64,000 nt of DNA from positions 3,376,001 to 3,440,000 of the forward strand of contig NZ_QFYQ01000001.1 of the NCBI RefSeq assembly GCF_003254475.1. Reading direction: 5' to 3'. This DNA comes from Phenylobacterium soli. Its GTDB lineage: Bacteria > Pseudomonadota > Alphaproteobacteria > Caulobacterales > Caulobacteraceae. Under the pieces are notes generated by a model that was given only the letters and a program-made list of their open reading frames with translations, made no database searches and had not been told where the DNA came from. Positions 16,452-45,253 of this stretch are shown here, piece after piece; position 1 is the stretch's first letter; each line of letters starts with the position of its first letter. Position numbers and translations under genes: made by a program.

Positions 16452-17455
16452 CAGCCGAAGGGGTGGAAGATGGAGCGCCTCTTCTTCGGCTTCTCGGCGG
16501 GGGCGTCGGTCTTCGGCGTCTCGGCCGGAGCGGCGGCCGGAGGCGGGGCGGCCTCGGTCTTGGCCTCGACCGGCTTGGCTTCGGACGGCGGCTTGATGGT
16601 CTGTTCCTTGTCGTGCCGGAACGGCATGTGGAACAGGCCGCGCTTGCCTCTGGCCGTCGGCTCGACGGCGGGCTTCAGCCCGCTGCTCGTCAGCAGCTTG
16701 TAGGCGTCGGCGTACCAGGGATCGCCCGGGTAGTTGTAGCCGAGCACGGCGCCGTTCTTCTTGGCCTCCTCGACGAGGCCGAGGGTCAGGTAGGCCTCCA
16801 CCAGGCGATAGAGCGCCTCGGGGGTGTGGCTGGTGGTCTGGTAGCGGTCGACCACGCCCTTGAAGCGGTTGATCGCCGCCAGGGTATCGCCCTGCCGCAG
16901 GTAGTAGCGGCCGATGGTCATTTCCTTGCCGGCGAGCTGGTCGTTGACCATGTCGATCTTCAGCCGGGCGTCGGTGGCGTATTCGGTGTTCGGGTAGCGC
17001 TGGACGACGTCCTTGAGGTTGTCGAGCGCCTGGCCGGTGGCCGCCTGGTCACGGCCCACGTCGACGATCTGCTCGAAGTAGCAGACGGCCTTCAGATAGT
17101 GGGCGTAGGCCGCGGCCGGGTTGCCCGGATAGAGCTGGATGAACCGGTCGGCGTCGGCGATCGCCTCGGCGTAGTTGTTCGACTCGTAGTGGGCGAAGGC
17201 CTGCATCAGGATCGAGCGGCGGGCCCACTCCGAATAGGGGTGCTGGCGCTCCACCTCGCCGAAATAGTCGACGGCCTGGTTCCACAGGCGGCGGTCCATG
17301 TAGTCCGCGCCCGTGGCGTAGAGCAGCTCGACCGGCCGCTCCTCATAGGCAAGCTGTGGCTTCTTCTTGCCCTTGCCGGCGCAGCCGGCGACCGCGAGTG
17401 CGCAGAGGGCGGCGACCAGCGCCGGGCGAGCCCACGAATTCCGAACGACGAGCAC
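16451..17455 (-). CDS. bamD: Outer membrane assembly lipoprotein BamD (ComL/YfiO)
   Basis: Lipoprotein of the BAM complex that inserts beta-barrel proteins into the outer membrane. A signal peptide ends in the lipobox LAVAGC, followed by GKGKKK. Tandem TPR-like repeats then run from about residue 40 to 260 (ERPVELLYATGADYMDRRLW, YFGEVERQHPYSEWARRS, ADRFIQLYPGNPAAAYAHY, TEYATDARLKIDMVNDQLAG). An unusually long C-terminal tail (about 275-334) is rich in Pro, Ala, Lys and Glu. I favour the GTG at 17455 because GAGG lies 5 nt upstream; starts at 17461 or 17485 are possible. Its position after lpxC is the usual alphaproteobacterial order. Confidence 0.95.
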   Translation of the reverse strand: MLVVRNSWARPALVAALCALAVAGCAGKGKKKPQLAYEERPVELLYATGADYMDRRLWNQAVDYFGEVERQHPYSEWARRSILMQAFAHYESNNYAEAIADADRFIQLYPGNPAAAYAHYLKAVCYFEQIVDVGRDQAATGQALDNLKDVVQRYPNTEYATDARLKIDMVNDQLAGKEMTIGRYYLRQGDTLAAINRFKGVVDRYQTTSHTPEALYRLVEAYLTLGLVEEAKKNGAVLGYNYPGDPWYADAYKLLTSSGLKPAVEPTARGKRGLFHMPFRHDKEQTIKPPSEAKPVEAKTEAAPPPAAAPAETPKTDAPAEKPKKRRSIFHPFG

Positions 17456-17539
17456 CTTCACCTCAAGGACAGACCGCGCCCCCACGCGAGGACTCCGCTT
17501 CTACACCACGTCGATAGGAGCGCAAACGGAACGGCGCCG

Positions 17540-17692
17540 CATATCCCTTCCCGTTCACAGGAAGGGGGGACCGCAGCCGAGCGAAGCGGAGAGCGGCGGT
17601 GGGAAGGGCCGGCTTCTGCAGTGCGCATTCCGCCCCCTCCGTCATCCGCTCCATGGCGGATGACACCTCCCCCGTCGAACGGGGGAGGAGCG
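17540..17692. repeat. Palindromic intergenic repeat (REP/BIME-like), second copy
   Basis: Between bamD and lpxC. It contains the perfect hairpins GTCATCCGC/GCGGATGAC (17641-17664) and CCTCCCCCGT/ACGGGGGAGG (17666-17688), plus a left unit opening with CCCTTCCCGTTCACAGGAAGGG. The arrangement of two facing units of CCTCCCC-type hairpins separated by short sequence resembles the element at 3790-3904. The last hairpin ends 7 bp from the lpxC stop, so it may stabilise or terminate the lpxC transcript. Confidence 0.75.
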
Positions 17693-17694
17693 GA

Positions 17695-18588
17695 TCAGAC
17701 CGCCTGCTTCAGCGGCTCGGCGAAGGTGCGGTAGCGCCAGGCGGTGGGTTGGGCGGCCAGGGCGCGGACCAGGAGGTTGTTCATGGCGTGGCCGGCGAGC
17801 TCGCCCTCGAAGCGGCCAAGGATCGGGGCGCCGAGGACGTAGAGGTCCCCGATGGCGTCGAGGGCCTTGTGGCGCACGAATTCGTCAGGGCGACGCAGGC
17901 CCTCCGGGTTCAGCACCCGGTCGCCCTCGATCACCACCACGTTCTCCATGGAGCCGCCGCGGGCCAGGCCCATGGCGCGCAGGGCCTCGACCTCGTGCAG
18001 GAAGCCGAAGGTGCGGCAGTCGGCGAGCTCGTCGCGGAAGGCCTGGCCGTCCATGGCGAGGTCGATCGTCTGCGTGCCGATGGCGGCGGTCGGAAAGCGG
18101 ATCTCGAAGGCGACTTCGAAGCCCTCGGCGGGCTTCAGCGCGGCGCGCTTGTCGCCTTCCACGACCTCGACATCCTCGAGGACCTCGATGAACCGGCGCG
18201 GGGAGTCCTGCATGCGCGTCCCGGCGCGGTCGAGCACCTTGATGAAGGGCAAGGACGAGCCGTCCATGATCGGCATTTCGGGCCCGTCGATCTCGACCAC
18301 GGCGTTGTCGACCCCGGTCATGACCAGGGCGGCCATCAGGTGCTCGATGGTGGAGACGGTGACGCCCGCATCGTTGCCGATGACGGTGCCGAGCTGGGTC
18401 TTCACGACGGTGTCGGGCGCGACCAGCACCCGGTTGTCCTTGTCGATGACGTCGGTGCGGACGAAGACGATACCGGTGTCGGCCGCGGCCGGGCGCACGG
18501 CGACGCGCGTGTAGGCGCCAGTGTGCACGCCGACGCCGGCGAAGGTCGCCGGGCTGCGCACCGTATGCTGATAGGCGTCTGCGGCCAC
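17695..18588 (-). CDS. lpxC: UDP-3-O-acyl-N-acetylglucosamine deacetylase LpxC
   Basis: 297 aa. Zinc deacetylase performing the committed step of lipid A synthesis. The zinc ligands are His83 in STIEHLMAAL and His240 and Asp244 in FVRHKALDAIGDLY; the catalytic-base His267 is in GELAGHAMNN. Opening sequence HTVRSPATFAGVGVHTG is typical. I chose GTG 18588 because GGAAGG lies 8 nt upstream; the frame extends further but without homology. It is downstream of ftsZ and a small gene, as commonly seen around ftsZ. Confidence 0.97.
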   Translation of the reverse strand: MAADAYQHTVRSPATFAGVGVHTGAYTRVAVRPAAADTGIVFVRTDVIDKDNRVLVAPDTVVKTQLGTVIGNDAGVTVSTIEHLMAALVMTGVDNAVVEIDGPEMPIMDGSSLPFIKVLDRAGTRMQDSPRRFIEVLEDVEVVEGDKRAALKPAEGFEVAFEIRFPTAAIGTQTIDLAMDGQAFRDELADCRTFGFLHEVEALRAMGLARGGSMENVVVIEGDRVLNPEGLRRPDEFVRHKALDAIGDLYVLGAPILGRFEGELAGHAMNNLLVRALAAQPTAWRYRTFAEPLKQAV

Positions 18589-18776
18589 GCTTGAAACCTT
18601 CCGAATCTGATCAGCCGGCCCTGCCGACCGAACTCGCCCCGCAGCTTGGTTAAGCCGTATGCGGCGGCGCAGCAAAACAAGCCCTGTTTCGCAATGTTTC
18701 GCTTTGGGAAGGGTTAACGGGCCCGCCCCTCACGCACCCACAAACATGTGGACGCACAAGGGGTTAGGCGAACGGC

Positions 18777-18995
18777 CTATTCGGCCAGGTAACGTCGGGA
18801 CCCGACGAGGACGTCGGCGCGGTCATGGACCGTCACTCGGGCGTCGTCGCCGACCGCCGCCAGCCGCGTGGCCAGGCTGCGGGCGTGGGCCTCGGCCTCG
18901 CGGCCGGAGAGGAACATCACCGGTTCCAGGTCGTCGAGGGCGACCCGCCAGCCGCCCGCCGCAGGGGCGACGACGATGAGATGGTCATGCCGCAT
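18777..18995 (-). CDS. Small DUF2188-like protein between ftsZ and lpxC
   Basis: 72 aa from ATG 18995 (MRHDHLIVVAPAAGGWRVAL). The pattern of a beta strand with GGWRV, then F-S-REAEAHARSLA helix, then ARVTVHDRADVLVGSRRY, resembles the DUF2188 fold in layout; this is a weak resemblance, not a firm family call. Its Shine-Dalgarno GGGAGGTG is part of the 3' arm of a 12-bp hairpin directly after ftsZ, so translation may be limited by RNA structure or by transcription termination. Function unknown. Confidence 0.6.
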   Translation of the reverse strand: MRHDHLIVVAPAAGGWRVALDDLEPVMFLSGREAEAHARSLATRLAAVGDDARVTVHDRADVLVGSRRYLAE

Positions 18996-19029
18996 GAAAA
19001 CACCTCCCGGAAAGACGCCGGGAGGTGTT
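18995..19029 (-). terminator. 12-bp perfect hairpin after ftsZ; overlaps the next gene's ribosome-binding site
   Basis: On the minus strand AACACCTCCCGG - 7-nt loop - CCGGGAGGTGTT, followed by TTC and then the ATG of the small gene. It begins 48 nt after the ftsZ stop codon. The stem and short T run fit an intrinsic terminator of ftsZ, while the 3' arm contains the Shine-Dalgarno of the downstream gene. Confidence 0.75.
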
Positions 19030-19076
19030 GTACGCCGGCCGGGGGCCGGCGGCATTCGCCTATGATGAGATCGGGG

Positions 19077-20564
19077 CTAGTTGGCTAGCCGACGCAGGAA
19101 GGAGGGGATCTCCAGATCCTCGGCGGTCTCGGCCTGGGCGTCGGGCTGGGCGACCTCGAGCGGCTGGGCGCCGCCGCGGCTGGCCATCGGACGCGGGGCC
19201 GGAGCCGCCGGGGTCTCGTAGCGCTGGCGACCGCCGCCGAACATCGACAGGAACCCGCCGCGCGGCTTGCGGCTCTCGAAGGCCGGCTCGGCGAACAGCG
19301 GCTCGTCGTCGACCTCCTCGTCGGCCACGGACGGGTCGACGATGCGGGTGATCGGGGCGTTGATGACCGGCTGCGGCGCCGCCGCGGCGACCGGGGCCGG
19401 CGCGGCCGCGGCGAACAGGCCGGGCTGCTCCTCCTCCAGGGCGGGAGCCTCGGCGGCGAGCGGCTCGGCGGCGATCTCGGCGGCCACCGGCTCGAAGGCC
19501 GGAGCGGCTTGGGCCAGCGGGGTCGGCTCGGCGTCGACGCGCAGCGCCGGGGCCTGCAGGGTGCGGCGCTCGGGCTTGGGCTCGATGGCGGCAATCGAGG
19601 CGCCGTCCATGCCGGTGGCGACCACCGACACGCGGATCATGCCGTCGAGGGTCGGGTCGAAGGCGGCGCCGAAGATGATGTTGGCTTCCGGGTCGACCTG
19701 CTCGGAGATGGCGTTGGCCGCCTCGTCGACTTCCAGCAGGGTCATGTCGAGGCCGCCGGTGACGTTGACCAGCACGGCCTTGGCCCCCTTCAGCGAAACC
19801 TCGTCGAGGAGCGGGTTCTGGATGGCGTTCTGGGCGGCCATCAGGGCGCGGTCCTCGCCCACCGCCTCGCCGGTGCCCATCATCGCCTTGCCCATCTCGG
19901 TCATCACCGTGCGGACGTCGGCGAAGTCGAGGTTGATGAGGCCGGGCAGGACCATCAGGTCGGTGATCGAGCGGACGCCCGAGTGCAGGACCTGGTCGGC
20001 CATGCCGAAGGCTTCGGCGAAGGTGGTCCGCTCGTTGGCGACGCGGAACAGGTTCTGGTTCGGGATGACGATCAGGGTGTCGACGTAGCGCTGCAGCTCG
20101 CCGATGCCGGCGTCCGCCAGGCGCATGCGGTGGCGCCCCTCGAAGTGGAACGGCTTGGTGACCACGCCCACCGTCAGTATGCCGCGCTCGCGGGCGCACT
20201 TGGCGATGATCGGGGCCGCGCCGGTGCCCGTGCCGCCGCCCATGCCGGCGGTGATGAAGACCATGTGGGCGCCGTCGAGGTGCTCGCCGATCTCCGGGAT
20301 CGACTCCTCGGCCGCGCTCATGCCGACCTCAGGATGGGCGCCCGCGCCGAGGCCCTGGGTGACCTGCACGCCGAGCTGGATGCGCCGGTCGGTCTTGGCG
20401 AACTGGAGCTGCTGGGCGTCGGTGTTGGCGACGACGAACTCCACGCCCTCGAGGCCCGCCTCGATCATGTTGTTGACCGCGTTGCCGCCGGCCCCGCCGA
20501 CGCCGAAGACCACGATCCGGGGCTTCAATTCCGTCGCCCGGGGCGCTGTGAGAGAAATCGTCAT
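19077..20564 (-). CDS. ftsZ: Cell division protein FtsZ
   Basis: 495-aa tubulin-like GTPase that forms the Z ring. The GTP-binding signature GGGTGTGA is at 109-116; [19 protein letters not shown] opens the fold, and the T7 region includes [19 protein letters not shown]. The GTPase core ends near 325. A long Ala/Pro/Glu-rich linker of roughly 155 residues follows, then the C-terminal peptide [13 protein letters not shown] that binds FtsA. The long linker is typical of Caulobacterales. Start ATG 20564 has AGGGG upstream. It is preceded by a control region with CtrA-type and GANTC sites, and followed by a hairpin. Confidence 0.98.
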
Positions 20565-20869
20565 GGGGACCCCTGCCGTCCTGACCTGCCGCTTTGGCCG
20601 TTTGCCGCTTTCAGGAGCCCGCGACCGCCCGCGGAACACCTGCTCCTTAAGGATGGGTTTACTAGGCGACCGACATCCTTAATCGAGGGTTAAGGCCATA
20701 GCGTGAGTCGGCGCGCGGGCGAGGCCGCGGATTCCTCAAAAAACGCTTGTGGGACAAGGAGAAGCGCGAATCGCCAGCTTCCCCTGCGACGGTCTGTCCG
20801 AAGCTTAACGGCAAAATTTTCCCAGCAAAGAACCACTTGGCCGATTCGCGGTCTGCGAACGCTGGAGCT
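20565..20869. promoter_or_regulatory. ftsZ control region with four GANTC (CcrM) sites
   Basis: The 305-bp gap between the flavoprotein gene and ftsZ. Besides the TTAA boxes described separately, it has GANTC at 20705-20709, 20730-20734, 20768-20772 and 20843-20847: four in 143 bp, where chance in roughly 70% GC DNA predicts about one per 360 bp. GANTC is the CcrM methylation target used with GcrA in Caulobacter to time ftsZ expression (established for C. crescentus; inferred here). No gene is apparent in this stretch. Confidence 0.7.
20647..20693 (-). promoter_or_regulatory. CtrA-type binding sites upstream of ftsZ
   Basis: TTAA-TCGAGGG-TTAA at 20679-20693 is a perfect TTAA-N7-TTAA CtrA box. 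It is itself the core of a CCTTAA/TTAAGG inverted repeat. A further TTAA at 20647 belongs to a perfect 9-bp inverted repeat TTAAGGATG (20647-20655) / CATCCTTAA (20674-20682). The main box lies about 115-130 bp upstream of the ftsZ ATG. In C. crescentus, CtrA represses ftsZ; the same role is inferred here. Confidence 0.75.
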
Positions 20870-22090
20870 TCACCTTTCCCGAGGCGGCGGCGCGGGCGGG
20901 AGACCGAGCCACGTCAACACGCCTTCGGCGGCGGCGCGGCCGGTGGCGAAGGCGCCCTGCAGGAGGTAGCCGCCCGTGGGGGCTTCCCAGTCAAGCATCT
21001 CGCCGGCCACGAAGACGCCGGGCAAGGGCCTCAGCATCAGGGTCTCATCCACCTCGGACCAGGCGAGGCCCCCCGCCGAGGAGATGGCGCGGTCCAGGCC
21101 GCGCGGCGCGGTCAGGGTGACGCGGACGTCCTTGATCGCGGCGGCGAGGTCGGAAGGCAGCTCGCCGCCGTTCGCCTCGCGCACCAGGCCGATGGCGACC
21201 GGCGAGAGCCCGGCGGCCTTGCGCAGGAAGTTGGCCATGGACTGACCGCCGCGGGGCGGGGCGAGGCGCTCGCGCAGGCGCGCCTCCGTGAGATCGGGGC
21301 GAAGGTCGAGGTGGAGCACCGCGCGGCCGTCGCGTTCGATGGCGTCCCGCAAGGGCGCGGATAGGGCGTAGATCGCCCCGCCTTCCAGGCCGTAGGCGGC
21401 GACCATCGCCTCGCCCCGGAGGGCCCGGCCCTCGAAGCTGAGCGCCAGGGGCTTCAGCGGCGCGCCGGCGAAGCGGGTGCGGAAGGGCTCGCTCCAGCGC
21501 ACCTCGAAGCCGCAGTTGGCCGGCCGGAAGGGGGCGAGCGCGAGCCCGCGCCGCGCGAGGATCTCGGCCCAGGCTCCGGTGGACCCGAGGCGCGGCCAGC
21601 TCGCGCCGCCCAGCGCCAGGACGACGGCGTCGAACCGCTGGACCTGACCGTCGGCGAAGGTGATGGCGCCGGCCTCGTCCCAGCCGGTCCACTCGGCGCG
21701 GGTGTGGATGGTGACGCCGAGGGCTGCGAGCCGGGCCAGCCAGGCGCGCAGCAGGGGCGAGGCCTTCATCGCCTTGGGGAAGATGCGGCCGCTGGTGCCG
21801 ACGAAGGTGGGCTGGCCGAGGGCTTCGGCCCAGGCGACCAGGGTCTGGGGCGGATAGGCTTCGATGATCGGGCGCAGGCGCTCCGCGGCCGCGCCGTAGC
21901 GGGCGAGGAAGCGTTCCAGCGGCTCGGAATGGGTGAGGTTGAGGCCGCCGCGGCCGGCGATCAGCAGCTTGCGCCCGACGCTCGGCATGCGCTCGAAGAC
22001 CGAGACGCGCAGGCCGGCGGCGGCGAGGGTCTCGGCGGCCATCAGCCCCGCCGGGCCACCGCCGATGACCGCCGCGGTGACGGCGGTCAG
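20870..22090 (-). CDS. BaiN/HI0933-type FAD-dependent oxidoreductase (TIGR03862-like flavoprotein)
   Basis: 406 aa if it starts at the CTG at 22090. Dinucleotide-binding GGGPAGLMAAETLAAAGLRV at the N-terminus, then GRKLLIAGRGGLNLTHSEP, VVLALGGASWPRLGSTG, SSAGGLAWSEVDETLM and GVFVAGEMLDWEAPTGGYLL: the HI0933-like family of uncharacterised flavoproteins. The first in-frame ATG (22042) would delete the GGGPAG loop, and no ATG, GTG or TTG exists further upstream in frame. The CTG overlaps the ftsA stop as CTGA. Either a rare CTG start coupled to ftsA or a sequence difference is likely. Its presence between ftsA and ftsZ is unusual. Confidence 0.85.
   Translation of the reverse strand: MTAVTAAVIGGGPAGLMAAETLAAAGLRVSVFERMPSVGRKLLIAGRGGLNLTHSEPLERFLARYGAAAERLRPIIEAYPPQTLVAWAEALGQPTFVGTSGRIFPKAMKASPLLRAWLARLAALGVTIHTRAEWTGWDEAGAITFADGQVQRFDAVVLALGGASWPRLGSTGAWAEILARRGLALAPFRPANCGFEVRWSEPFRTRFAGAPLKPLALSFEGRALRGEAMVAAYGLEGGAIYALSAPLRDAIERDGRAVLHLDLRPDLTEARLRERLAPPRGGQSMANFLRKAAGLSPVAIGLVREANGGELPSDLAAAIKDVRVTLTAPRGLDRAISSAGGLAWSEVDETLMLRPLPGVFVAGEMLDWEAPTGGYLLQGAFATGRAAAEGVLTWLGLPPAPPPRER

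Positions 22091-44860: not shown

Positions 44861-45253
<393 letters not shown>

Follow-up and report, generated by a model that had tools for sequence, protein, structure and literature searches.

The hairpin that follows ftsZ in Phenylobacterium soli probably acts as a nested read-through insulator, such that the small gene behind it is translated only from RNA begun at its own predicted promoter. We studied this site in a 64,000-nt stretch of the genome (the window; coordinates in Table 1) and at the corresponding loci of relatives. Polymerase arriving from ftsZ would transcribe the entire hairpin, and part of transcription would end there; in the RNA that reads through, the Shine-Dalgarno (SD) sequence would be locked by about 20 kcal/mol, leaving the small gene untranslated from ftsZ mRNA. 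At the candidate own promoter, the −10 would lie at the base of the 5′ arm and the anti-SD CCTCCC would be the untranscribed stretch from −10 to +1. Own RNA would then start at about the first purine after the anti-SD, with a leader of ~25 nt and an SD of ordinary accessibility. We give roughly even chances to a broader reading, in which one ~35-bp element terminates ftsZ, supplies the next gene's −10 and discriminator, and locks translation, so that an ordinary chromosomal gene would sit behind an origin-of-transcript gate. Such a gate would be under selection for insulation in part of Phenylobacterium and would persist as a bare terminator where the gene has been lost.

The first-pass annotation had described a 12-bp hairpin 48 nt past ftsZ whose 3′ arm is the SD of a 72-codon gene with its ATG 3 nt on, and this description is accurate, with all features on the minus strand. 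Its label of terminator-like is apt for the perfect, GC-rich 12-bp stem and 7-nt loop and less so for the tail: the T-run after the stem in the window (GTGTTTTC) is TTTT only, and a strict terminator scan (at least 5 T in 8) does not list the hairpin. A smaller hairpin (hairpin 1) lies between ftsZ and the −10-like element, and by eye many relatives seem to have a small hairpin at this position, with different sequences in the arms.

Table 1. Features of the ftsZ-downstream site, in window coordinates
Feature	Position	Strand	Basis or detail
ftsZ (upstream gene)	19077..20564	-	Pfam Tubulin and FtsZ_C; stop codon TAG 19079-19077 read from sequence
Hairpin 1, CGCCGGCC-CCC-GGCCGGCG, between ftsZ and −10-like element	19033..19051	-	arms read from sequence
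−10-like hexamer TACAAC	19027..19032	-	top-scoring hexamer in the 75 nt preceding the ATG
12-bp hairpin (SD lock; terminator-like stem behind ftsZ)	18999..19029	-	sequence, fold, conservation, opening cost
Hairpin 5′ arm AACACCTCCCGG	19029-19018	-	
Anti-SD CCTCCC in 5′ arm, where the promoter discriminator would lie	19020..19025	-	
Predicted own-RNA start of small gene	19018..19020	-	predicted from geometry only; first purine at least 6 nt past the −10-like hexamer is 19019
Hairpin loop CGTCTTT, 7 nt	19017-19011	-	
Hairpin 3′ arm CCGGGAGGTGTT	19010-18999	-	followed by TTC, then ATG at 18995
Shine-Dalgarno GGGAGG within 3′ arm	19003..19008	-	read from sequence
72-codon gene, conserved small protein without assigned function	18777..18995	-	conservation; AlphaFold2; stop ends at 18777

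The locked SD stands out among the starts of its own genome. The RNA of 18960-19080 folds with a z of −4.32, and 0/200 shuffles were equally stable. We surveyed starts (an SD followed by ATG or GTG opening at least 60 codons) in 464 kb of the same genome, made up of the window and 20 stretches. A perfect stem of at least 9 bp covered the SD in only 4/224 combination rows, both 12-bp rows being the ftsZ-downstream site. The predicted cost of opening the SD at this site (19.8 kcal/mol) was the highest among 184 distinct SD-starts, for which the next-highest value was 13.2 and the median 5.3 kcal/mol. Separately, the SD of a 282-aa gene of this genome, at L209:1085-1140 (G000:C1, about 1441130), falls within an 11-bp stem-loop, GCTCCCGTTGC/GCAGCGGGAGT, followed by TTCTCATG.

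An anti-SD, SD and ATG in succession is not a general habit of this genome. The pattern CCTCC-N7-20-GGAGG-N4-7-ATG has 23 matches in the window's genome versus 3 for the same pattern reversed, and replacing CCTCC by TCCCC, a sequence unable to pair with the SD, gives 17 versus 1. With CTAG in front, matches occur in 88/101 genomes for CCTCC and 82/101 for TCCCC, and in the window's genome the reversed control of the CTAG-prefixed CCTCC pattern is the commoner (12 versus 6). We rejected the idea on these grounds. A few own-genome matches resemble the site (L228, L230, L231 and L240). Among the matches listed for the CTAG-prefixed patterns, many look by eye like dispersed REP-like palindromes, and CCTCCCC/GGGGAGG palindromes of a similar type occur in many genus genomes among the matches listed. 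REP-like palindromes also lie downstream of lpxC (window 17550-17695, e.g. CACCTCCCCCGTCGAACGGGGGAGGAG). A mobile-element or REP origin of the site itself is not supported, since the 481-bp region is single copy in the genome (besides one 25-nt partial match) and keeps a constant place behind ftsZ in 23 regions.

The small gene is conserved as a protein in part of the genus, a point on which the first-pass annotation had made its reading depend. Our genus set comprised 101 genomes, 95 of them with ftsZ at threshold, and the DNA after ftsZ was available as 88 regions plus the window's own (89 in all, including two fragments at contig ends, L150 and L199, and one region, L200, that follows an ftsZ-like paralogue). 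The small protein is encoded behind ftsZ in 23/89 regions, and pN is below pS in 252/253 pairs of these 23 members, all read in frame. Judged by this conservation and by pN below pS, it is a real gene product. Among 80 ftsZ loci gathered more widely, into other Caulobacteraceae and further, and in part truncated by contig ends, five carry the gene, all of them Phenylobacterium; these lie on the same contigs as five in the genus set and are therefore not independent. AlphaFold2 confidently predicts a beta-beta-beta-alpha-beta-beta fold (mean pLDDT 95). Searches of the protein against Pfam, NCBIfam and PDB sequences returned no significant match, and Foldseek of the model against PDB returned none at E 0.001 or better. 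The window protein has no match to DUF2188 (PF09954), and two relatives score below that family's cut-off of 22 (L121 at 16.5 bits and L005 at 13.6 bits).

Comparison across loci indicates that conservation of the hairpin extends to its base pairing, with compensatory changes. At 19/23 gene-bearing loci (type A) the SD lies within the 3′ arm, and all six SD pairs are kept in 19/19 of these; three of the six are G-U at one or two loci. In the columns flanking the SD (−3 to −1 and 7 to 10), 117/133 possible pairs are kept, versus 98.4 on average when arms were shuffled between species (0/5000 shuffles as good), a test that is inflated by species relatedness. Counts of branches on which both sides of a pair changed are safer, though the ftsZ tree (39 sequences, one reconstruction used) has several deep nodes with support below 50. 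Such branches number four at column −1, three at −2, one at −3, two at column 8, and one each at columns 9 and 10. Conservation of the hairpin and gene together with compensatory changes, proposed earlier as a check, is thus borne out at 19 loci. Among the remaining gene-bearing loci, the strong hairpin of L137, L138 and L140 (type B) ends in TGCTAT, 31–32 nt separate that hexamer from the ATG, and the SD lies outside the hairpin and is not locked; L121 (type C) shows weaker pairing.

Folding predictions separate RNA that reads through from ftsZ and RNA from the predicted own start. Opening the SD would cost a mean of 17.2 kcal/mol (8.0–22.5) in read-through RNA at the 19 type A loci, consistent with the earlier claim that such RNA is untranslatable while the hairpin is closed, and a mean of 5.8 kcal/mol (2.2–7.9) in own RNA at the same loci. 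For the four type B and C loci taken together the predicted values are 7.6 kcal/mol in read-through RNA and 4.4 kcal/mol in own RNA. When the assumed 5′ end is moved, the cost drops between +1 and +5 nt past the hexamer and then levels off, so loss of the lock does not hang on the exact start position. These opening-cost and 5′-end-shift runs used TAAGCT for L139, and the hexamer taken for L134 was CATAGT, one of two overlapping weak candidates. Within the folding model, escape of own RNA from the lock is relative, not complete. The window's own RNA would open at 7.5 kcal/mol, where the 90th percentile of ordinary 25-nt leaders is 8.4, and the predicted probability that the SD is unpaired in own RNA averages 0.27 and exceeds 0.5 in 0/19 loci (in a run that used the wrong hexamer for L139).

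Gene-bearing loci also carry a −10-like element at a regular spacing. Within 75 nt of the start codon, 21/23 loci, types A and B alike, have their best −10-like hexamer at −34 to −40; in L139 and L121 it lies elsewhere. On a −10-like score devised after inspecting the sequences, 17/19 type A loci reach at least 7 beside the 5′ arm versus 2/37 gene-less ftsZ hairpins, with L139 and L134 scoring only 5.0 and 5.5. An extended TGnTA occurs in 14/19 type A loci versus 0/37 gene-less hairpins, and the window's own hexamer is without the TG extension. The Caulobacter RpoD −10 box appears as GCTANAWC in a passage of an earlier study (PMC8144410). This box is matched at 6/7 or better by 10/19 type A loci versus 1/37 gene-less hairpins and at 5/7 or better by 18/19 versus 9/37, and the window's TACAAC fits its TANAWC part. 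The pyrimidine anti-SD occupies the stretch from the hexamer to the first purine, so a standard start at that purine would leave the anti-SD out of the own RNA.

A sigma-70 promoter scan of window 17000-21000 found no promoter, and we saw no convincing −35 box candidate for the small gene. The conserved TCGTCAC, 22 nt away from TAGAAC, is too distant to be a standard −35. The block CGAAATCGTCAC stands shortly before TAGA upstream of the small gene in L123, L128, L131, L133, L135, L136 and L141, and CGAAATCGTCAC-N20-24-TAGA occurs once per genome, at the ftsZ locus, in 7/8 genomes tested. Too distant for a −35, this block is perhaps an activator site. L141 and L192 have extra DNA between ftsZ and the hairpin, and there the block (CGAAATCGTCAC or a near form, CGAAAACGTCAC in L192), the −10 and the hairpin all remain with the gene.

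Among other explanations, a plain ftsZ terminator survives best, although we consider it unlikely. Under it, the 3′ arm would double as an SD by chance, selection would be for termination only, and the lock would be incidental. We compared terminators using 46 gene-less loci, leaving out 20 gene-less regions (13 without a pattern-detected ftsZ end, including L150, plus L194–L200). In agreement with a terminator role, a GC-rich hairpin was called by rule behind ftsZ in 37/46 gene-less loci, and the first 8 nt of the tail hold 2–7 T in these 37 versus 1–6 in the 19 gene-bearing loci. One gene-less relative, L113, keeps the same stem (CCTCCCGG/CCGGGAGG, then TTTTT, a better T-run than the window's) without the gene and without a good −10, so the stem there can only serve ftsZ. 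In the ftsZ tree its grouping with the window and L193 has support 69, against 99 for the window and L193 alone. However, four type A loci with poor T-runs (at most 3 T in 8; L119, L134, L139 and L192) retain all SD pairs, which argues that the lock, and not termination alone, is selected, and a plain terminator leaves the −10-like element beside the 5′ arm unexplained. Fourteen homologues that do not lie behind ftsZ, ten of which were placed by their coordinates and the others of which include the window genome's own paralogue, have no stem over the SD; three more homologues of this kind (L026, L027 and L031) yielded no SD-preceded start. The gene appears to have been lost several times within the clade, on a tree whose deep nodes are weak.

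The first-pass annotation had instead suggested a structure-controlled switch, and a regulated switch on read-through RNA (a thermometer, ftsZ ribosome traffic, a chaperone or a ligand) now seems improbable. The SD is fully paired in the read-through fold and the stem covaries, as a switch would have it. Yet the stem is predicted to stay closed up to 60 °C. The window's predicted SD opening probability rises from 1e-14 at 37 °C to just 4e-10 at 60 °C, where opening would still cost 14.3 kcal/mol, and on this basis we rejected an RNA thermometer and with it control by temperature. Control by ftsZ ribosome traffic fares no better, since the −10-like hexamer ends anywhere between 46 and 161 nt past the ftsZ stop, depending on the locus, and the arm should thus be out of reach of a ribosome that terminates on ftsZ. 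Nor is a known RNA family or riboswitch supported, as no curated Rfam model reaches its gathering score at the hairpin; RNase P is the sole Rfam match in the window at gathering scores, a class A RNA at 44861-45249 (minus strand). Finally, an own promoter for the small gene, with a start on the downstream side of the hairpin, had been named as an observation that would count against the switch. By prediction an own promoter appears to be present, with the −10-like element adjoining the 5′ arm so that RNA would begin past the anti-SD, and it would make opening unnecessary. Slightly less probable still is expression from processed ftsZ read-through, for example by loop cleavage that removes the 5′ arm, which would leave a short leader much like that of the proposed own RNA but does not predict a −10-like element and TGnTA that are absent from gene-less ftsZ hairpins.

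The logic of the proposed insulator would be that of read-through protection in IS200 and IS10-type elements; what would differ is a single nested hairpin on a non-mobile gene. In the IS200 tnpA leader of Salmonella, a terminating stem-loop and a stem-loop that occludes the ribosome-binding site guard the gene from outside transcription, according to passages of one report (PMC3196728), and the occluding stem-loop also appears in part of another (PMC12594629). Our site resembles IS200, by prediction, in shielding a gene from outside transcription through termination and occlusion of the ribosome-binding site. It differs in that IS200 uses two separate hairpins within an insertion sequence, whereas here a single hairpin would take both roles at a chromosomal gene, with RNA from the predicted own promoter starting within the hairpin. 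In IS10 and IS50, own transcripts begin inside the inverted repeat and are translatable, while outside transcripts fold over the ribosome-binding site. The start of own RNA inside the hairpin, predicted here from the −10-like element and its spacing, would follow the same principle, although IS10 and IS50 are mobile elements and the ftsZ-downstream region is not. We know of no role for the IS10 or IS50 repeats as terminators of an upstream gene's mRNA. As with intrinsic (Rho-independent) terminators, a GC-rich 12-bp stem with a 7-nt loop and a short T-run comes soon after a gene; unlike them, the T-run is short, and poor in 4/19 relatives, the 3′ arm is an SD, and the 5′ arm adjoins a −10-like element. 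RNA thermometers and other SD-sequestering hairpins share the fully paired SD, whereas the stem here is perfect, GC-rich and predicted to be closed at 60 °C.

If this reading is correct, only RNA begun inside the hairpin would be translatable, and a hairpin that "buries" an SD may be no switch at all when the true transcript begins inside that hairpin. Bacterial genes are closely packed, and how one of them is shielded from a strong neighbor like ftsZ can seldom be read from sequence. The site would then be a very compact insulator outside mobile elements, with terminator, promoter and lock in one hairpin, and would be usable as a design part. Among the titles and passages seen in our literature search none dealt with this locus, and the search turned up no paper on a Phenylobacterium ftsZ terminator.

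Two further observations concern lpxC and FtsZ. Before lpxC lies a block, GCGAAACATTGCGAAACAGGGCTTGTTTTGCTGCG (window 18668-18702, minus strand), of which a similar form is seen by eye upstream of lpxC in many Caulobacteraceae, and it looks like a conserved lpxC control region. In addition, 14 genus genomes encode a second, FtsZ-like protein (G152:C1:491100-492110 and 13 similar places), with 74–80% identity over about residues 6–345.
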